DNA from: Ensifer sp. BR816
Lineage (GTDB): Bacteria; Pseudomonadota; Alphaproteobacteria; Rhizobiales; Rhizobiaceae
DNA length: 64,000 nt
Direction: 5' to 3'
Assembly: GCF_000378985.1 (NCBI RefSeq)
Contig: NZ_KB905370.1
Location: 5,082,799 to 5,146,798 of the forward strand
Shown here: positions 11,354-60,004 of the stretch, one piece after another
How positions within the stretch are numbered: the first letter of the stretch is position 1
Layout of the letters: the number at the start of each line of letters is the position of its first letter
The notes under the pieces: model-generated
Database searches by the model: none
What the model saw: the letters and a program-made list of their open reading frames with translations, nothing else
Told to the model about the DNA's origin: nothing
Program-made: the position numbers and the translations under genes

Positions 11354-12970
11354 ATGACCAAGGAACGCATCTATCTCTTCGACACGACGCTTCGGGACGG
11401 GCAGCAGACGCCCGGCATCGACTTTTCCGTCGAGGACAAGATCGCCATTGCCGCCATGCTCGACGAATTCGGAATGGACTATGTCGAGGGTGGATATCCG
11501 GGGGCAAATCCGACCGACACGGAGTTCTTCACGAAGAAACGGACGCAGAAGGCCGCCTTCGTCGCCTTCGGCATGACCAAGCGCGCCGGCGTCTCCGCCT
11601 CCAACGACCCGGGCCTCAATGCGCTGCTGGCGGCCAAGAGCGATGCCATCTGTCTCGTCGCCAAGAGCTGGGATTATCATGTCGAGGTGGCGCTCGGCTG
11701 TTCGAACGAGGAAAACCTCGAGAATATCCGTGCCTCGGTCGAGGCGGTCATCGCCTCCGGGCGCGAGGCGATGGTCGATTGCGAGCATTTCTTCGACGGC
11801 TACAAGGCAAACCCCGTCTATGCGATCGCCTGTGCAAAAACGGCGCTTGAGGCGGGCGCGCGCTGGGTGGTGCTCTGCGACACCAATGGCGGCACGCAGC
11901 CGCCTGAGATCCGCGAGATCGTTTCCGCCGTAATGGCGTCCGGTGTGCCGGGCGCGAATCTCGGCATCCACGCACATAACGATACCGGCCAGGCGGTGGC
12001 GAATTCGCTCGCCGCAGTCGAAGCCGGCGTGCGGCAGATACAGGGTACACTGAGCGGCATCGGTGAGCGCTGCGGTAACGCCAATCTGGTAACGCTGATT
12101 GCGACGCTTGCGCTGAAGGAAGCCTATTCAGGGCGCTTCGAGCTCGCGATCGACGCCGACAAACTGCAGGAATTGACGACGCTTGCCCACGCCTTCGACG
12201 AACTCCTCAATCGCTCGCCGGACCCGCAGGCGCCCTATGTCGGCGCCTCGGCCTTTGCCACCAAGGCGGGCATCCACGCCTCGGCGCTCCTGAAGGATCC
12301 GCGGACTTACGAACATGTGGCGCCCGAGTCGGTCGGCAATCTGCGCAAGGTCATGGTCTCCGACCAGGGCGGCAAGGCAAATTTCATCAACGCGCTCAAG
12401 CGGCGCGGCATCACGGTCCCGAAGGACGATCCGCGGCTCGACAAGCTGATCGAGGTCGTCAAGGAGCGCGAGGCGACCGGCTATGCCTATGAGGGGGCGG
12501 ATGCGAGTTTCACCCTGCTCGCCAACCGCATCCTCGGCACCGTGCCGGAATTCTTCCATGTCGAGAGCTTCCGGGTCATGGTCGAGCGCCGCTTCGATGC
12601 GAACGGCAATCTGAAGACCGTGTCGGAGGCCGTGGTCAAGGTCATCGTCGACGGCGAGGTGATGATGTCGGTCGCCGAGGGACATGGTCCCGTCAATGCG
12701 CTCGACCTTGCTCTTCGCAAGGATCTCGGCAAATTCCAGTCCGAGATCGCCGATCTCGAACTCGCCGACTATAAGGTGCGTATCTTGAACGGCGGCACCG
12801 GGGCCGTCACCCGCGTGCTGATCGAATCGACGGACCGGACCGGCGCGCGCTGGTGGACGGTCGGCGTCTCCGACAACATCATCGACGCGTCCTTCCAGGC
12901 GCTGATGGACAGCATCGTCTACAAGCTGCTCAAGAATCGCGACCGGGTCGGGCTGATTGCCGCCGAATAG
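11354..12970 (+). CDS. cimA: (R)-citramalate synthase / alpha-isopropylmalate synthase family
   Basis: A 538-residue Claisen-condensing enzyme. The TIM-barrel starts with FDTTLRDGQQTPGIDFSVEDK, the DRE-TIM signature; HAHNDTGQAVANSL carries the metal histidines, and GNANLVTL follows. A C-terminal LeuA-dimer regulatory domain (about 400-535) is present. The length and the DGQQTPGI sequence fit the CimA group that condenses pyruvate with acetyl-CoA in an isoleucine route, rather than LeuA. The ATG at 11354 is chosen over a TTG at 11342. It begins 52 bp after pip. Confidence 0.88.
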   Translation: MTKERIYLFDTTLRDGQQTPGIDFSVEDKIAIAAMLDEFGMDYVEGGYPGANPTDTEFFTKKRTQKAAFVAFGMTKRAGVSASNDPGLNALLAAKSDAICLVAKSWDYHVEVALGCSNEENLENIRASVEAVIASGREAMVDCEHFFDGYKANPVYAIACAKTALEAGARWVVLCDTNGGTQPPEIREIVSAVMASGVPGANLGIHAHNDTGQAVANSLAAVEAGVRQIQGTLSGIGERCGNANLVTLIATLALKEAYSGRFELAIDADKLQELTTLAHAFDELLNRSPDPQAPYVGASAFATKAGIHASALLKDPRTYEHVAPESVGNLRKVMVSDQGGKANFINALKRRGITVPKDDPRLDKLIEVVKEREATGYAYEGADASFTLLANRILGTVPEFFHVESFRVMVERRFDANGNLKTVSEAVVKVIVDGEVMMSVAEGHGPVNALDLALRKDLGKFQSEIADLELADYKVRILNGGTGAVTRVLIESTDRTGARWWTVGVSDNIIDASFQALMDSIVYKLLKNRDRVGLIAAE

Positions 12971-13146
12971 ACCTGCGCCGCGTTCAGCGCCGCTCATGCA
13001 TCGGTTCACGGAAATGAATTGGTGCATCACCGTTCGTTGGAGTAGGACGCAGGGAGGAGCGACGGCAGTTCTCCGCCGACGACTGGCCGTCGATTGAGAC
13101 CGGAGCAACCCCGCTTGGCCCCGGTTTAAGTTTCAGGATCAAGCTC

Positions 13147-14085
13147 ATGGCCGAACCGAACGCGAAACAGCCCGCCGAGAATACCGATTCCGCGAGAGGG
13201 TTCGCCTTCGCGCTGACGGCCTACTTGCTCTGGGGTTTCCTGCCCTTTTTCATGAAGGCGGTGGCGCACATCCCCGCGCCCGAAGTCGTCGCACACCGCA
13301 TCGTCTGGTCGGTGCCGCTCGCCGGGCTGGTGCTTTTGTGGCTCGGTCGCACGCAGGAGATCAAGACCGCGCTACGCTCGCCGCGCATGCTGAAGATGGC
13401 GACGCTGACGGCTGCCCTCATCACCGTCAATTGGGGCATTTATGTCTGGGCGATCGGTGCCGGGCGGGCGATCGAGACGGCGCTCGGCTATTACATCAAC
13501 CCGCTGTTTTCGATTTTCCTCGGCGCCCTCCTGCTCAAGGAACGACCGAACCCGGCCCAGATGGTGGCGATCGGTCTGGCCGCACTCGCCGTCGCCGTGC
13601 TCGCCTTCGACGCTGGCGGACTGCCGTGGGTATCGATCGGGCTCTGCATCTCCTGGGGCTTCTACGCATTTTTCCGCAAGACCCTGCCGATCGGCCCGAA
13701 CCAGGGCTTCTTCCTCGAAGTGGTCCTGCTCAGTATCCCGGCGATCGGCTACATCATCTGGCTCGAAGCGACGGGGCAAGGGCATTTCGGCGACACGACC
13801 ATGACCGACGTGGTCCTGCTTCTGTCCTGTGGTCTCGTCACGGCCGTGCCGCTGATGATCTATGCCAATGGCGCCAAGCTCCTCAGGCTCTCGACCATCG
13901 GCATCATGCAATATATCGCCCCGACGATGATCTTCGTGATCGCCGTCTTCGTCTTCCACGAACCCTTCGGCGCGGCGAAACTCGTGGCCTTCGCGCTGAT
14001 CTGGGCAGCGCTCTTCATCTATTCGGGAGCGATGCTGGCCGAAAGCAGGGCTCGCCGTGCCGCACAGCCGACGCCGGCGGAGTAG
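13147..14085 (+). CDS. rarD: RarD-type EamA/DMT superfamily permease
   Basis: A 312-residue inner-membrane protein with about ten hydrophobic segments, in two EamA halves. The N-terminal GFAFALTAYLLWGFLPFFMKAVAHIPA and the HRIVWSVPLAG segment are hallmarks of RarD (chloramphenicol-sensitivity protein family). The substrate is unknown; relatives export small metabolites or drugs. Start ATG at 13147 follows 176 bp of non-coding DNA. Its stop is directly followed by the convergent LOG gene (stops about 1 bp apart). Confidence 0.9.
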   Translation: MAEPNAKQPAENTDSARGFAFALTAYLLWGFLPFFMKAVAHIPAPEVVAHRIVWSVPLAGLVLLWLGRTQEIKTALRSPRMLKMATLTAALITVNWGIYVWAIGAGRAIETALGYYINPLFSIFLGALLLKERPNPAQMVAIGLAALAVAVLAFDAGGLPWVSIGLCISWGFYAFFRKTLPIGPNQGFFLEVVLLSIPAIGYIIWLEATGQGHFGDTTMTDVVLLLSCGLVTAVPLMIYANGAKLLRLSTIGIMQYIAPTMIFVIAVFVFHEPFGAAKLVAFALIWAALFIYSGAMLAESRARRAAQPTPAE

Positions 14086-14086
14086 C

Positions 14087-14704
14087 TCAGAGTTTGGCGA
14101 TGATCTCGGTTTCGCCCTCGCGACCGTTCGCGGCGGCGGAAGCCAGAATACCGGGCACGATGTCCTCGGCCCGGTCGATCACCAGCGGCTGTACCAGATG
14201 GGCCGTGTGGACGAAGCCTTGCTCGCGCATGTGCTGGAGGAGTTCGAGCATCGGCGCCCAGAAGCCGTTGATATTGCCGAACACCATCGGCTTGCGGTGA
14301 CGGCCGAGCTGCGCCCAGGTCATGATCTCGACGATCTCTTCCAGCGTGCCGATGCCGCCGGGCAGCGCTATGAAGGCGTCCGCCCGCTCGAACATCGTGT
14401 GCTTGCGCTCATGCATGTCGCCGGTGACGATCAGTTCGTTGAGCTGGCCGAGCGAGTGGCGGGTCGCTTCCTTGTCCATCAGGAACTCGGGAATGATGCC
14501 GGTGACGTGACCGCCGGCCGAGAGCACGCCGCTTGCCACGGCGCCCATGATGCCGCGCGTGCCGCCGCCATAGACGAGCTGCAGTCCATGATCGGCGATC
14601 GATTTCCCGAGAGTGCGGCCCGCCTCGATATGCGCCGGATCACGTCCGGGCTGAGAACCGCAATAAACGCAGACGGATCGAATCGGGGCAGGGTGCTTGC
14701 TCAT
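14087..14704 (-). CDS. LOG family protein (cytokinin riboside 5'-monophosphate phosphoribohydrolase-like)
   Basis: A 205-residue Rossmann-fold protein with the family motifs YGGGTRGIMG (45-54) and PGGIGTLEE (115-123), which bind nucleotide phosphate and ribose. LOG enzymes release free base from nucleoside 5'-monophosphates, including cytokinin nucleotides, which is relevant for plant-associated bacteria; many members act as general AMP/purine nucleosidases. The ATG at 14704 begins MSKHPAPIRSVCVYCGS; the upstream frame to 14800 lacks similarity. It diverges from the LysM gene. Confidence 0.9.
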   Translation of the reverse strand: MSKHPAPIRSVCVYCGSQPGRDPAHIEAGRTLGKSIADHGLQLVYGGGTRGIMGAVASGVLSAGGHVTGIIPEFLMDKEATRHSLGQLNELIVTGDMHERKHTMFERADAFIALPGGIGTLEEIVEIMTWAQLGRHRKPMVFGNINGFWAPMLELLQHMREQGFVHTAHLVQPLVIDRAEDIVPGILASAAANGREGETEIIAKL

Positions 14705-14865
14705 GAAGGCAAAAGACATTGCAGCGCAACACGGGTCAAGGAAAATGCGCGAAAACCCGTCGCGCTGGTGCTTGTGTCCGCAGTCGAAGCTTGTGCCCAA
14801 CTATAGGAAACGTTAGCAATTTCAGTAATACATTGAAGAATTCGGACGGTCGACCGCCGTTGCGC

Positions 14866-14871
14866 TATAAT
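14866..14871 (+). promoter_or_regulatory. Putative -10 box (TATAAT) for the LysM-protein gene
   Basis: A perfect TATAAT lies 75 bp upstream of the ATG at 14946, in an AT-richer stretch between divergent genes. The -35 region at the usual distance (around 14842-14848) is only TCGGACG-like, so the match to the rhizobial CTTGAC-N17-CTATAT consensus is partial. Confidence 0.35.
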
Positions 14872-14945
14872 GCATCAATGGCTTGCCCGTTGTAAGCCGA
14901 TGAAGGGGCATGTGCGGAGATCGCTCCGCTCCCGTGGAGAGTGGC

Positions 14946-16613
14946 ATGATAAAGAACAAGGCCAGCTGGGTGGCCCTCGGTGTGCTGGCGATTGCGACCG
15001 CGTTGATGGTCTTCGTGGTTCAGCCGAACCTCAATCTGAATGACGATGACAAGGAAATGACCGCGCAACCTGCGGCAAGCGGCAGCGAGACCGCAGGCGC
15101 GGCGCCCGCCGGCAAGGTCCAAGGTGGGGCGCAGGAGCAGGGGGCTGCGACCGCAGACTTGACCGTTCCAGGATTTGACCTTCTTCGCGTCGAGCCGGAT
15201 GGGTCGACCGTCGTCGCCGGCCGTGCCCAGCCGGGTACCAAGCTGGAAATTCTGAGCGGCGATACCGTGGTCGGTACGGCCGATGTCAACGCGGCTGGAG
15301 ACTTCGCCGCCGTCTTCGACAAGCCGCTTGCGGCCGGCGACCACCAGCTGACGCTCCGAAGCCTCGGCGCCGGTGGCGCCAGCAAGGTCTCGGAAGAGAT
15401 CGCCACCGTTTCCGTGCCGAAGGAGCCGGGCGGCCAACTGCTGGCGATGGTCTCCAAACCGGGCGAGGCAAGCCGGCTGATCACGACGCCGAAGGCAGAT
15501 GCCAAGGGGACCGAGACTGCGGCCGCGCCCGCGACGCAGAACGGCGCTACGGAGGCAACACCTGCGATGCCGACACCTTCCAACATCGTGTCCGGCCTGC
15601 AGGTGACGGCTGTGGAGATCGAAGGCCAGAGGATGTTCGTGGCCGGCAATGCGAAACCGGGGGCACTGGTGCGCATCTATGCCGACGACAAGCTCGTCGG
15701 CGAGATGAAGGCGGACGACAAGGGGCATTTCATCGTCGATGGCACGGTCGAGCTCGCCGTCGGCAGCCACATCATCCGCGCGGACATGATGAGCGAGGAC
15801 GCCACCAAGGTAGCGATGCGCGCCTCCGTGCCCTTCGACAGGCCGGCCGGCACGCAGGTCGCCGCGATTGCCGGTTCCTCCTCGGAACACGCTGCCCCAG
15901 GACTCGATGGCCTGAGGACGGAGGCAGGCAAGGCGCTCACCCTGCTGAAGGGGCTTTTCACCGATGGCAAGCAGCCCTCCGCCGAACAGCTTGCCGCCGC
16001 CCGCTCGGCAACGGAATTTGCGCTGAAATCACTCTCCGAGTTCAAGCCGGCCGAGACTTCCGATGCGGCACAGACCGCCGCGGCAGCCGAGGCTTCCAAG
16101 GCAGCCGCCGAGGCTTTGAAACTCCTGAGAAATTCGCCGCAGGACCCGGCAAGCGTCGTTGCGACGCTTGGCAAAGTTGACGGGGTCATCGGACCCGCAT
16201 TGTCGCAGCAGGCGAGCGGCACTGCGCTTGTGGCCTCGGCCAAGCCCCAGGCCACGGCGAGCGACGCGGCCGAACCGCCGAAGCCCGACAGCGCGACGAA
16301 CAACGCGAACAAGCCTTCGGGCGAAGAGATCGCCGCATCCGCTCCGGCGGACGTACAGCCCGCAACGATCGAGCAGCCGCCGCTCAAGGAAAGCAAGGAA
16401 TCCGTGATCATCCGCCGTGGCGACACGCTCTGGCAGATTTCGCGCCGCGTCTACGGCAAGGGCGTGCGTTACACGACGATCTACCTCGCCAACCGCGAAC
16501 AGATTGACAATCCCGACCTGATCCGCCCCGGCCAAGTGTTCGGGGTTCCGAACGAGGCTCTTTCCGACGTGGAATCGCGGGAGATGCATCGCAAGCGTGT
16601 GAGACGCGAATAA
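14946..16613 (+). CDS. Membrane-anchored Ig-like/LysM protein
   Basis: A 555-residue protein with an N-terminal membrane anchor (residues 8-27) and an acidic Ala/Gly-rich spacer. Two related beta-sandwich repeats follow (about 75-140 and 217-285; both have the pattern VxGxAxPGxxxxIxxxDxxVGxxxxxxxGxF). Then come a long Ala-rich helical region and a C-terminal LysM domain (about 497-545; RRGDTLWQISRRVYGKG). LysM binds peptidoglycan, so the protein probably spans from inner membrane to cell wall. The ATG at 14946 follows GGAGAG and starts just before the anchor. A terminator at 16677 ends the unit. Confidence 0.88.
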   Translation: MIKNKASWVALGVLAIATALMVFVVQPNLNLNDDDKEMTAQPAASGSETAGAAPAGKVQGGAQEQGAATADLTVPGFDLLRVEPDGSTVVAGRAQPGTKLEILSGDTVVGTADVNAAGDFAAVFDKPLAAGDHQLTLRSLGAGGASKVSEEIATVSVPKEPGGQLLAMVSKPGEASRLITTPKADAKGTETAAAPATQNGATEATPAMPTPSNIVSGLQVTAVEIEGQRMFVAGNAKPGALVRIYADDKLVGEMKADDKGHFIVDGTVELAVGSHIIRADMMSEDATKVAMRASVPFDRPAGTQVAAIAGSSSEHAAPGLDGLRTEAGKALTLLKGLFTDGKQPSAEQLAAARSATEFALKSLSEFKPAETSDAAQTAAAAEASKAAAEALKLLRNSPQDPASVVATLGKVDGVIGPALSQQASGTALVASAKPQATASDAAEPPKPDSATNNANKPSGEEIAASAPADVQPATIEQPPLKESKESVIIRRGDTLWQISRRVYGKGVRYTTIYLANREQIDNPDLIRPGQVFGVPNEALSDVESREMHRKRVRRE

Positions 16614-56094: not shown

Positions 56095-56412
56095 TCGGGC
56101 CTTTTGCCCGGAGTTTTACCCGAAGGCAAGGGTCAACGGAGGAGCTTCGCAGCGGCGCCATAAGGTCGGAGCGAGCGGACTCAAGAGCTTATTGTTATCA
56201 AATCCTGGACGACGTGTTCCGATAATCAATACTTCCAAACCTCATCATGAGGCCCCACATCTATCGGCGAAGAGCGCAGGAACTGCTCTTCCGATCACCC
56301 GGTTCGGATCGAATGCCATCGGCAAGGCCGCCGCGTTCGAAAGAGACTGACCCGATCACAGGTGGTCGCGACCAACCCATCATTCAGCGAATCTTCTGAC
56401 CAGGAGTTGACC
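56095..56412. other. Divergent non-coding region, ABC-F / small exported protein
   Basis: 318 bp with no supported ORF. A CCTCATCATGAGG inverted repeat lies near 56240-56252. AAGAGCTTATTGTTATCAAATCC (about 56183-56206) is the most AT-rich stretch and may contain a plus-strand promoter, but no consensus pair is evident. Confidence 0.4.
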
Positions 56413-56691
56413 ATGAGAAATGCAGTCCACACCGCTCTCGCCGCTGCCCTTGTCGCCACTGCCGTTCTTGGTGGCGCCTCTGCTGCCTTTGCCGGCGGCA
56501 GCTATTACGAAGGCATCAGCGACAAGCCGCTCTTTACGGAACGCGCTCCGAAGGCCGGAGGCGAGGCCGCCGTTCGCCGCACGAATGGTTCCATTGACCG
56601 TACCCTGACGGGTTCCGTCGCCGACTACGCCGTCCAACCGAAGCTGGTCCGCGGCGGAGAAGGTGAATATTACCAGGGCATTAGCCGCTAA
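56413..56691 (+). CDS. Small exported protein with terminal YY(E/Q)GIS repeats
   Basis: A 92-residue protein: signal peptide (about 1-28, ending AAFAGG), then a mature part of about 64 residues that begins GSYYEGISDKPL and ends GEYYQGISR, so the same six-residue motif occupies both ends. AGGAG precedes the ATG at 56413. No enzymatic motif. It is followed by a terminator and by the adenylation-carrier-acyltransferase gene. Function unknown; periplasmic or outer-surface location is likely. Confidence 0.78.
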   Translation: MRNAVHTALAAALVATAVLGGASAAFAGGSYYEGISDKPLFTERAPKAGGEAAVRRTNGSIDRTLTGSVADYAVQPKLVRGGEGEYYQGISR

Positions 56692-56769: not shown

Positions 56770-56887
56770 CCGCTTGCGAGAGTGATGAGTACCGTGTGCG
56801 TGCCGCTATTTGTCGCGGCCCTTTCGTATTTAGTTCGGTGCTAATACTTGACGACAGGAGTCAGCAATAATATGCCGCCTCGCTAAA

Positions 56888-59551
56888 ATGGAGGTGGCTT
56901 TGGGCGCAGGTGAATTGTCGATATTCCCGTTTTCTGTTGCGCATCTGGCCGCCCAGGGCGAGAAGCCGGCCCTGGTGTTCCCGGGCGGGAGGGTCGTCAG
57001 CTACCGGGAACTGGCCACCCGCGTCGATCGGCAGGCAACGGAATGGCGCGGCGAGCGCGGACTGGTGATGCTCGAGGCCGACCTCTCGGAGCACGCGATC
57101 GTCGCCTATCTTGCCGCACTCGATGCCGGTCACGCCGTCGCCTTGCAGGGGCCGTCCGCCACGGGCGCCGATCGCGGGAGCTTCAAGCCGGATTTCTGCC
57201 GTCGCCGCATCGACGGACGCTGGCGCACGGAGCGCTTGGAGGGGGACCGAACCGCCCTCCATCCCGATCTGGCCGTCCTGCTCTCGACCTCGGGCAGCAC
57301 CGGCCAGGGGAAATATGTCCGTCTGTCCAGATCGAACATTGCGGCCAACGCACGGGCAATTGCCGAATATCTCGGCCTCACCGCGGCGGACCGGAGCTGC
57401 CTCATTCTGCCGCTGCATTATTCCTACGGCCTGTCCGTCCTGAACGCTCACATCACAGTCGGCGCGAGCATCTACATCCCCGGCGGATCCATTCTCGATG
57501 AAGGTTTCCTCGACGGACTTGCCGGAAGCGGCTGCACCAATTTTTCCGGCGTTCCCTATTCCTACGACCTTCTGGAAAAGGCGGGCTTCCGCGAGCGGGC
57601 ATTTCCGCGACTGCGATTCATGACCGTCGCTGGCGGACGCCTGCCACCCGAGACGGTCCGTCTCTACAACGAGCACCTGCTTCAGCGCGGCGCAGCCTTT
57701 TTCGTGATGTACGGCCAGACGGAGGCGACCGCCCGCATCGCCTACATGCCCCCGGATCGGCTGCGGGGCAGGGAGGACTGCATCGGCGTCGCGATACCCG
57801 GCGGCAGCCTGACGATCGAGGACGAAAGCGGCCGACTGGTCACCGGTGTGGAGGAACCTGGCGAACTCATCTATCGTGGCGCGAACGTGATGATGGGCTA
57901 TGCCAGCTCGCGGGCCGACCTCGCCGATGATGCCGCGCTTTCCGAATTGCGAACCGGCGACCTGGCGGTCAGGGATGTGGACGGGTTCTTCCGCATTGTC
58001 GGACGGACCAAGCGGATATCGAAGATCGCCGGGCTGCGCATCGGGCATGACGCTCTCGAAGCGGCTTTGGAACGGCATGATATCGCCGCCGCGGTCATTG
58101 GCAGCGATGTCGAAATTCATGCCTATTTCGTGGGAGAACGCGATCCAGATGACATCCGCCGGTTGCTCGTCTCCGCGAGCGGACTGACCCTGCTGCAGGT
58201 CCGGGCGACGCGCATCGACGCGCTGCCGCGCCTGGCATCCGGCAAGGTCGATTACGAGGCTCTCCGCGATAAGGGCCGGGGCGCCGGCGGCTCCTCGCGC
58301 GCAGAAGGCGTCGAAGCGCTGTTCGAGCAGCTTTTCTACCCGCGGAAGGTTCGATCGGAAGACAGCTTCCTGTCGCTCGGCGGGGATTCGCTCCGTTTCG
58401 TCCAGCTGTCGATCGGTCTCGAAAAAATCCTCGGCGAGGTGCCCGAGGCCTGGGAGCGAATGTCGGTCAAATCATTGGCCGCGATGGTCCGCCAGGAACG
58501 CAAGGGATCACAGATCGGCACGGATTTCCTAATCCGGGCGCTGGCCATCCTGCTCGTCGTACTTCACCACGAGACGCTTTGGCCGATCCCGGGCGGCTCG
58601 GCGACGATGGTCATTCTCGCCGGATTCGGGCTGGCGCGATTCCAGAGCGGCGCTCTGTTGTCGGGCTCGCTTTGGCCACTGCTACGGCCGTTGGCGCAGA
58701 TCCTGGTTCCCTATTATCTGATTGTTGCCGCCTACGCTCTTGCCTGGGGAGACGTGCCCTGGGCCTCGGTCTTCCTGGTCGGCAATTTCGGCTTCGCCGA
58801 TCCCGAGCGGCACAGCATGGTACCGTATCTCTACTGGTTCATCGAGGCCTATTGCCAGATGGTGCTGGTGTTTGCCGCTCTGTTCGCCGTGCCGCCCATC
58901 AGGCGCTTCGCCGCCGTTCGGCCCTTTGCCGCCGGCATGGCGCTGCTTGCCGCCGCCTTTGCCGCCCGTATGGCGCTGCCGCAGCTTTGGGACATTGGCA
59001 ACCGCCAGATCTTCACGCTGCCGTGGATCTTTCACCTGGCCGTAGTCGGCTGGTGCGCGGCGCTGGCCCGGAGCTGGGCCCAGCGGCTCGCAGTCATGGC
59101 GGCAGGCACGGGAATCTACCTGTTTCTCGGTCTATACGAGGGGGTCTGGATCGGCACGAAGATCAAATATCTGCTGCAGATCGCGGTTCTCGCGGCGCTC
59201 CTGTTCCTGCCGCGCATTCGTCTGCCGCAATGGGCGGTCCATCTTGTCCTGCCGCTTTCGGCGGCGGGCTTTCATATCTATATCCTGCACCGCTTCGTGC
59301 CCGAACTCCTGCTGGCGCCGGTGCAGCCGTTCCTTCCACCACTCGCCTATTCGCTCGCTTCGATCGCCGGTGGCGTCATGTTGGGGCTCGCGGTCTGGTC
59401 GGGTCAGCGCGAGCTTTTCAAATGGCTCGTGCGCGCCAGGGCCGGCGCTCTCCCGGCGGATTGGCCGGCCGGGATCAAGTCCTGGCTCACTTCAGGCCGC
59501 CCATTTTTCGCCCTCGGTCCTCAGGAAGAAAACCAGGTCCAGCGTCAGTGA
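56888..59551 (+). CDS. Adenylation domain - carrier domain - AT3 membrane acyltransferase fusion
   Basis: An 887-residue three-part protein. (1) Adenylation domain (about 10-460): A3 TSGSTGQGK (134-142), A5 MYGQTEA (274-280), A7 RTGD (355-358), A10 lysine K453, all intact. (2) Carrier domain (about 470-535) with the pantetheine serine S501 in LGGDS. (3) About ten membrane helices (546-845) starting RALAILLVVLHH; R550 and H560-H561 match the Acyltransferase-3 signature. It could activate a small acid or amino acid, hold it as a thioester and pass it to a surface lipid or glycan, like a fused Dlt pathway. The substrate is unknown. The start is uncertain: GGAGGTGG (56890-56897) overlaps the ATG and precedes a TTG at 56900. 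The 3' end overlaps the DinB gene by 60 bp. Confidence 0.9.
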   Translation: MEVALGAGELSIFPFSVAHLAAQGEKPALVFPGGRVVSYRELATRVDRQATEWRGERGLVMLEADLSEHAIVAYLAALDAGHAVALQGPSATGADRGSFKPDFCRRRIDGRWRTERLEGDRTALHPDLAVLLSTSGSTGQGKYVRLSRSNIAANARAIAEYLGLTAADRSCLILPLHYSYGLSVLNAHITVGASIYIPGGSILDEGFLDGLAGSGCTNFSGVPYSYDLLEKAGFRERAFPRLRFMTVAGGRLPPETVRLYNEHLLQRGAAFFVMYGQTEATARIAYMPPDRLRGREDCIGVAIPGGSLTIEDESGRLVTGVEEPGELIYRGANVMMGYASSRADLADDAALSELRTGDLAVRDVDGFFRIVGRTKRISKIAGLRIGHDALEAALERHDIAAAVIGSDVEIHAYFVGERDPDDIRRLLVSASGLTLLQVRATRIDALPRLASGKVDYEALRDKGRGAGGSSRAEGVEALFEQLFYPRKVRSEDSFLSLGGDSLRFVQLSIGLEKILGEVPEAWERMSVKSLAAMVRQERKGSQIGTDFLIRALAILLVVLHHETLWPIPGGSATMVILAGFGLARFQSGALLSGSLWPLLRPLAQILVPYYLIVAAYALAWGDVPWASVFLVGNFGFADPERHSMVPYLYWFIEAYCQMVLVFAALFAVPPIRRFAAVRPFAAGMALLAAAFAARMALPQLWDIGNRQIFTLPWIFHLAVVGWCAALARSWAQRLAVMAAGTGIYLFLGLYEGVWIGTKIKYLLQIAVLAALLFLPRIRLPQWAVHLVLPLSAAGFHIYILHRFVPELLLAPVQPFLPPLAYSLASIAGGVMLGLAVWSGQRELFKWLVRARAGALPADWPAGIKSWLTSGRPFFALGPQEENQVQRQ

Positions 59552-60004
59552 CGGCCGTCCGAGCGCAGTCAAGATCGCATGCGCCTGTCCCCGGTGATGG
59601 GTTTGGTGATTGAAGAAATGGGCGAGCGTGGCACCGACTTTCTGCGTGATTTTGTCGGGCATGGTGAGCGGTGAGTAGGTGAAGTGCGCGTCGATCCGTG
59701 CCTCGTCGAGGCTGTCTAGCCAGGCGATGATGCGCTCATCTTCTTCGACCCGCGCTGCCGTCAGGGCGCTGAGGGTTTCGCCGAGGATCGCGTCGAGTTT
59801 CGTCGGTGCCTCGCCGTCCCCGGTGAACCGCTTCATCCAGATCCGGTCGGCGACGAGGATATGGTTGAGTGTTGCATGCAGCGAGCCGAAGAAGGCGCCC
59901 TTGTCCTGCCGGTATTCCGCCTCGGAGAGTTCTGCCGCGGCCGCATAGACCCGCCCGTTGGCCCAGCGATTGTAGTCGGCAAACATGCGGTAATGGTCGA
60001 GCAT
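59492..60004 (-). CDS. DinB family metalloenzyme-like protein
   Basis: A 170-residue four-helix-bundle protein with the DinB metal triad: H48 in SLHATLNHILVADRIW and H133/H137 in HFFNHQTHHRGQ. DinB-like proteins include mycothiol- and bacillithiol-dependent transferases; in alphaproteobacteria the thiol partner and substrate are unknown. It overlaps the 3' end of the fusion gene (56888) tail-to-tail by 60 bp and diverges from the GST gene. Confidence 0.88.
   Translation of the reverse strand: MLDHYRMFADYNRWANGRVYAAAAELSEAEYRQDKGAFFGSLHATLNHILVADRIWMKRFTGDGEAPTKLDAILGETLSALTAARVEEDERIIAWLDSLDEARIDAHFTYSPLTMPDKITQKVGATLAHFFNHQTHHRGQAHAILTALGRPSLTLDLVFFLRTEGEKWAA

Follow-up and report, generated by a model that had tools for sequence, protein, structure and literature searches.

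The described systems closest to the protein considered here each resemble a part of it. Trans-membrane acyltransferases of the AT3/TmAT type, such as OafB, OatA and HGSNAT, have a common fold, an Arg-X10-His motif in transmembrane helix 1 (TMH1), a Gly in TMH6 and a Tyr in TMH9. Modules of nonribosomal peptide synthetases (NRPSs), for example LgrA or the EntE-EntB fusion, place an adenylation (A) domain with its A10 Lys before a carrier domain with a GGDSL serine. DltA, DltC and DltB follow a logic of activation, carrier and membrane transfer, DltB being an MBOAT, and epsilon-poly-lysine synthetase (Pls) has the order A domain, carrier, membrane part, as does the protein studied here. We analyzed a 64,000-nucleotide stretch (the window) of Ensifer sp. 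BR816 (assembly GCF_000378985.1, contig NZ_KB905370.1, positions 5,082,799 to 5,146,798 of the forward strand), in which one gene, here called A-PCP-AT3, encodes an A domain, a carrier domain and an AT3-like membrane domain. We propose, with slightly more belief than doubt, that it specifies a self-contained enzyme, induced by iron starvation, that activates an acyl group and transfers it across the membrane, and whose product would help Fe(III) reach the ferric-binding protein FbpA.

A preliminary description, made from the sequence of the window alone, had read these three domains in one chain, with the motifs TSGSTGQGK (residues 134-142), MYGQTEA (274-280), RTGD (355-358), K453, S501 and RALAILLVVLHH (550-561). 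The motifs lie at these places, and profile matches, fold and invariant residues agree on the architecture. In Pfam searches, the window protein matched AMP-binding (PF00501) strongly, PP-binding (PF00550) below its cut-off (Table 1), and AT3 (PF01757) below its cut-off both at full length (E 1.8) and as an isolated domain (E 0.084). The weak carrier and AT3 calls gain support because other family members match better. PP-binding was found in 16 of the 17 members of alignment A1 at E up to 10 (best 6.9e-5) and AT3 in 8 of them at the same limit (best 2.8e-7), and isolated membrane domains matched PF01757 in 56 of 63 cases at E up to 1 (best 4.8e-14). A comparison by hhalign of the family membrane domain with six AT3 domains of the same genome, taken from nine AT3 match rows in that genome, gave a probability of 96% and a pairwise E of 3.7e-9. 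All three profiles are thus found in one chain, with the carrier and AT3 calls carried by the family, and the proposed kinship of the membrane part with AT3 withstood the profile comparison. The full-length structure model (pLDDT 79.6) matches adenylate-forming enzymes in the PDB, the best with E 1.5e-24.

Homologous loci, labeled with L numbers, were collected in a main set of 80, 37 of them actinobacterial, the others including alphaproteobacteria and gammaproteobacteria, with open reading frame (ORF) calls based on codons in place of earlier length-based calls. The 65-member alignment holds the window protein and 64 of these loci; those left out are mostly near copies (L035, L038, L041, L043, L044, L052, L053, L060, L061, L088 and L105) or have a split or partial gene (L063, L068, L069, L070 and L098), and alignment A2 also excludes L047 and L110. 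The five loci with split or partial genes are alphaproteobacterial and look as if decaying or misassembled. Residues K453, S501, R550, H561, W650, F651, G721 and Y798 are invariant in all 65 members, as is the adenylation core (T134-G136, Y275-E279 and T356-D358). Within the genus, a full or nearly full-length match occurs in 33 of 33 genomes, counting the window's own, and the first named relative by identity is S. glycinis (85%); in a sample of 297 genomes of the order, the carrier-membrane half finds a strong match (E 1e-70 or better) in 10, again counting the window's own. Because every genus genome has a match and the catalytic columns do not vary, the gene is, as judged from these sequences, neither a chance reading frame nor a lone pseudogene. 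The expectation that the protein depends on a phosphopantetheinyl transferase encoded elsewhere is in keeping with two PF01648 matches outside the locus in the same genome, and no adjacent biosynthetic gene is annotated in the syntenic S. meliloti stretch, as the preliminary description had it for the window.

With the AT3/TmAT enzymes, the membrane domain shares some features and not others. In the model it takes the ten-helix TmAT fold; VIA-align alone gave this match, and a Foldseek search of the PDB with the membrane model gave no significant match. The TMH1 Arg-X10-His motif, described for TM1 of AT3 proteins (PMC12423673), is kept, as are the TMH6 Gly and the TMH9 Tyr. The TMH1 Asp of DxxR is absent, position 547 being V, L, I, M, F or A in all 65 members; this Asp is reportedly dispensable in OacB, and GWT1, which lacks it, is nevertheless placed in the superfamily. 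In TMH2, Gly579 of FxxxxG is invariant but position 574 is L or M throughout, and in TMH3 the RxxR pair (R600 with R603) occurs in 1 of 65 members, R600 being present in 37 and R604 in 32. The TMH1 Asp, TMH2 Phe and TMH3 RxxR are parts of the coenzyme A (CoA) site in TmAT enzymes, and their loss would fit an acyl donor borne by a carrier. Since the protein has its own adenylation and carrier domains, which the AT3/TmAT enzymes compared do not, the donor is probably carrier-bound rather than CoA-bound. By fold, the membrane domain belongs to the TmAT superfamily and, with three classical features missing, not to classical AT3; the most fitting description is a divergent AT3-like branch fused to a carrier. 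Both the architecture and the fold have good support.

The likeness to Dlt had been noted before together with its limits, which stand: the structure of DltA (3e7w) is among the structural matches, while A-PCP-AT3 is a single chain with a TmAT-type membrane part, lacks the Asp for an amino acid and is preceded by predicted iron boxes. Unlike NRPS modules, it has no acidic residue at positions 178-181 and no condensation or thioesterase domain, and it ends in a membrane transferase. The nearest A domain sequences of solved structure are LgrA, then VinN and oxalyl-CoA synthetases, when the full protein is used, and VinN and oxalyl- or malonyl-CoA synthetases come first for residues 125-397; VinN and these synthetases are near in rank but distant relatives. 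Positions 178-181 read Y/F, S/C, Y and G. The Asp of known A domains, which we take to be the residue that binds the amino group in amino-acid-type domains, aligns with Gly181 in the comparison with LgrA and with Ser/Cys179 in that with VinN. Because none of the 65 members has an acidic residue at these positions, the substrate is unlikely to be an amino acid and is more probably a small organic acid, and the aminoacylation chemistry suggested at first is not favored.

The promoters connect the family with iron. We strongly predict iron control in Actinobacteria, where an IdeR/DmdR iron box stands at 34 of 37 loci, compared with 1 of 506 control promoters. A box was counted when it had at most 5 mismatches of 19 and lay in the gene's own 250-nt promoter or, for operons that begin with fbpA, in the fbpA promoter; the loci without one are L076 and L089 (7 mismatches) and L087 (6). 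The consensus, TWAGGTWAGSCTWACCTWA, is printed in PMC9505556; Streptomyces iron-box sites are given in PMC7174319. A second sample, 296 genomes taken evenly across this phylum, yielded 17 matches, 14 of them strong, and 12 testable loci (the 13 strong loci outside genome G332, minus L136, which is cut by a contig end). A box with 5 or fewer mismatches is present in 8 of the 12, or in 7 of 11 if L134 is set aside as not independent, given its 94% identity to L106; the other twelve of the 13 strong loci are at most 60% identical to their best match in the 65-member set. Among 372 tiled 500-nt windows of the 13 loci, 8 boxes were found, in exactly those 8 promoters. FbpA and FbpB occur within about 5.5 kb in 4 of the 12. 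Seven loci of Arthrobacter and Pseudarthrobacter (L086, L088, L092, L100, L103, L106 and L107) have no nearby fbpA, yet have iron boxes with 3-4 mismatches.

In Sinorhizobium, iron control via a RirA-type site is well predicted from the promoter sequences and was not seen by chromatin immunoprecipitation (ChIP). The iron-responsive operator (IRO), TGA-N9-TCA as defined in PMC6386902 and PMC8822346, is found in the window and in each of the 19 genus loci L002-L020, at almost the same position and with constant TGAC and GTCA arms around a middle that varies. In a scan of 35 loci (L064 and L109 were left out), it lies within 150 nt of the gene at 11 of the 12 loci of Sinorhizobium type and at 12 of the remaining 23, which are also alphaproteobacterial; among control promoters taken from these loci the count is 33 of 552. 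Several scanned loci come from genomes that also supplied L002-L020, or are near copies of them. For the stricter TGAC-N7-GTCA the counts are 9 of 12, 2 of 23 and 2 of 552. No convincing Fur box emerged from a search of nine non-actinobacterial loci.

A further line of evidence is the recurring presence of a ferric ATP-binding cassette (ABC) transporter. Its FbpA is encoded within 4 kb at 25 of the 80 loci, namely 22 of the 37 actinobacterial loci together with L046, L047 and L057, some loci being cut by contig ends. The arrangement varies: the A-PCP-AT3 gene comes after fbpABC, the ends overlapping (L074, L112), comes before it (L080, Rhodococcus fascians plasmid), or diverges from it (Pararhizobium plasmid), and neighbors at L115, L117 and L118 are annotated as iron ABC genes. 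On a quick tree of the 65 rows, Fbp linkage requires 9 changes, at least 7 of them forced by starred branches. FbpA of L046 is closely related to ferric-binding proteins of known structure (best E 7.9e-142). The best NCBIfam matches, to a 2-aminoethylphosphonate type (L074, 1.6e-18; L046, 4.4e-16), are far below the cut-off, and for L046, the one locus compared with the PDB, the ferric matches are far stronger. FbpC-like matches upstream of the gene in Sinorhizobium are an ABC-F ATPase by annotation and were not counted as Fbp. No other recurrent biosynthetic neighbor appears among the neighbors listed, and the non-Fbp neighbors listed (29 loci) look unrelated.

Two further neighborhoods deserve mention. 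At L087 (Kibdelosporangium, 12368-15313 of that locus), two siderophore permeases of FecCD type and a binding protein of ferric-dicitrate type are encoded after the gene. At L117 and L118, on plasmids of Rhodococcus fascians and Mycolicibacterium chubuense, a cluster of fbp genes and A-PCP-AT3 lies amid metal transport and resistance genes, including a cation P-type ATPase and cadmium genes, and in L118 also arsenic genes.

Expression data are available for S. meliloti, whose ortholog, SMc00592, was assigned from its place between ndk (SMc00595) and uvrC (SMc00602) in the gene order and not by sequence. Table 2 of PMC2848241 lists it as a hypothetical transmembrane protein with M values of -0.44, 1.47, 1.30 and -0.23. 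Across these values its profile correlates at 0.999 with SMb21431 and at 0.994 with exbB and hmuT, and the median correlation is 0.94 for 18 iron-related genes and -0.35 for 17 others, by labels that we assigned; SMc00402 (0.979) and SMa0520 (0.951), which are not iron-labeled, are also high. SMc00592 tracks the iron genes, a result that is suggestive and not decisive because there are four points per gene in a pre-selected table of 36 swarming genes. Apart from this table row, we found nothing on the architecture or its iron link in open-licence papers, and the database records seen label family members AMP-binding protein, AMP-dependent ligase or hypothetical transmembrane protein.

Taken in sequence, the proposed reaction would start when iron is short and RirA (in Rhizobiales) or IdeR/DmdR (in Actinobacteria) releases the promoter. 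The A domain would adenylate a small non-amino carboxylic acid, and the acyl group would be loaded onto the phosphopantetheine arm at S501. This arm could then enter the cytoplasmic mouth of the membrane domain, replacing acyl-CoA, and H561/R550 chemistry would hand its acyl cargo to an acceptor on the outer side of the membrane. The product likely serves Fe(III) acquisition. In its simplest, unproven form it would be a small secreted Fe(III) ligand, made from ordinary metabolites, that helps Fe(III) reach FbpA. A more specific version, to which we give only tentative credence, is a one-protein metallophore machine feeding FbpABC, common to Rhizobiales, some other Proteobacteria and Actinobacteria, whose TmAT domain would work without CoA and take its donor from the carrier arm in cis.

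Several observations weigh against this explanation. In the second actinobacterial sample, L139, L140 and L146 have no box (7 or more mismatches) and that of L145 is weak (6). The IRO is absent from 11 of the 23 non-Sinorhizobium alphaproteobacterial loci, which include Rhodobacterales-type loci where RirA is presumably not to be expected. Sinorhizobium, the window included, has no adjacent Fbp; its one strong FbpA match in the window's own genome is unlinked, and 40 of the 65 tree members have no Fbp within 4 kb, although some contigs are short. Co-occurrence with FbpA across the order was dropped as uninformative because FbpA is so common there (235 of 297 genomes, and 8 of the 10 strong carriers). 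In Gram-negative loci, where none was searched for, a TonB receptor did not come to notice next to the gene. The argument from the lost CoA site is partial, since the TMH1 Arg that is kept also lies on the cytosolic side. ChIP sequencing of RirA in S. fredii CCBAU45436 found seven regions with ten peaks in all, and five of the peaks have the motif; the genes named at the peaks in the main text include fec, asb, exb, tonB, hmu and fox, and the A-PCP-AT3 gene is not among them (PMC8822346). As reported in PMC6386902, S. fredii HH103, the rirA mutant included, makes no siderophore detectable by chrome azurol S (CAS).

Among the alternatives, the one that survives best, though we consider it unlikely, is an iron-regulated surface modification: an acyl group placed on a lipid, lipopolysaccharide (LPS) or polysaccharide at the outer face would yield an iron-binding surface or an iron-starvation envelope. 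AT3 proteins are known to acylate carbohydrates (PMC9833829), and the neighbors listed include no recurrent TonB receptor or exporter; the repeated FbpABC partner, in contrast, suggests uptake of a ligand. Family members are found in alphaproteobacteria, gammaproteobacteria and Actinobacteria, whose surface glycans differ, which also speaks against a surface target. The earlier suggestion of glycan or lipid acylation thus keeps its place as a possible chemical route, while the iron link points to iron acquisition instead of general decoration because of the RirA-type and IdeR/DmdR boxes, the FbpABC neighbors and the iron-like expression of SMc00592.

It is improbable that the protein is a tailoring enzyme, acylating a siderophore or citrate-like ligand that other pathways make or that is imported. 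The FecCD-type permeases and siderophore-binding protein behind the L087 gene would suit such a role, and S. meliloti makes rhizobactin 1021 (PMC2848241). The gene is nevertheless present in all genus genomes examined, and no siderophore biosynthetic gene recurs beside it among the neighbors listed. That the enzyme is a backup that spares iron, or part of a stress response, and takes no direct part in capturing iron seems more doubtful still. Iron repressors also control iron-sparing genes, and most alphaproteobacterial members have no Fbp linkage, but FbpABC is again and again adjacent in members from distinct parts of the tree. That the iron motifs and the linkage to Fbp arose by accident in particular lineages, around a general AT3 acylase, as the unrelated look of the other listed neighbors and the gene's absence from those named at the S. 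fredii ChIP peaks might suggest, is very improbable given the box counts in both actinobacterial samples and the RirA-type sites in another phylum.

The extent of the gene itself needs a correction. The ORF described earlier as encoding 887 residues is present, and translation probably starts at a downstream TTG, giving about 883 residues (Table 1). This start is preferred because five sister loci (L018, L020, L035, L036 and L038, of which L020 and L035 look like one strain) have no ATG and have an in-frame TAG just 5´ of the TTG, which has a good ribosome site, and because GGAGGTG is placed upstream of it. At the other end, the last 60 nt overlap, among the window ORFs, an antisense gene whose DinB-family label is taken from the annotated S. 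meliloti relative. A tail at the C-terminus, GPQEENQVQRQ, is common to eight genus rows and absent from the other rows of that alignment; the overlap is the likely reason for its conservation within the genus, and the tail may be a by-product of the antisense gene's code.

Table 1. Position of the A-PCP-AT3 gene, its domains and its flanking signals in the window
Feature	Position	Strand	Remarks
A-PCP-AT3 gene	56888..59551	+	887 codons from ATG; about 883 from TTG 56900
Predicted RirA operator (IRO box), TGA-N9-TCA	56849..56863	+	39 nt before annotated ATG; TGACGACAGGAGTCA
Shine-Dalgarno-like GGAGGTG	56890..56896	+	serves probable TTG start at 56900
Adenylation domain	56888..58276	+	about residues 1-463; PF00501 E 5.7e-41
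Carrier domain	58295..58501	+	about residues 470-538; phosphopantetheine serine S501; PF00550 E 0.01
AT3-like (TmAT fold) membrane domain	58508..59452	+	about residues 541-855
R550-X10-H561 motif of AT3 proteins, TM1	58535..58570	+	R550, H561 in 65/65
Gene 3´ end overlapping antisense DinB-family gene	59492..59551	+	DinB-family gene at 59492-60004 (-)

Upstream, a scan of the promoter for sigma-70 sites gave no match. Directly 5´ of the gene and on the same strand, window positions 56362-56691 encode a small protein with a signal-like N-terminus, and a hypothetical gene occupies the matching position in the S. meliloti relative. Between this small-protein gene and the RirA-type site lies a short GC-rich hairpin with a T-rich tail (56802-56819), a possible terminator of a kind expected 0.3 times by shuffling.

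If the proposed explanation is correct, a gene of 33 of 33 Sinorhizobium-type genomes that is now vaguely labeled would belong to iron acquisition, some FbpABC transporters would gain a cognate molecule, and the trans-membrane acyltransferases would include a carrier-fed branch. In this group, the rirA mutant of S. fredii HH103 has a slight growth advantage in low iron, which its authors ascribe to unknown uptake systems (PMC6386902). A-PCP-AT3 may be a compact, unrecognized iron-acquisition enzyme rather than a general surface decorator.

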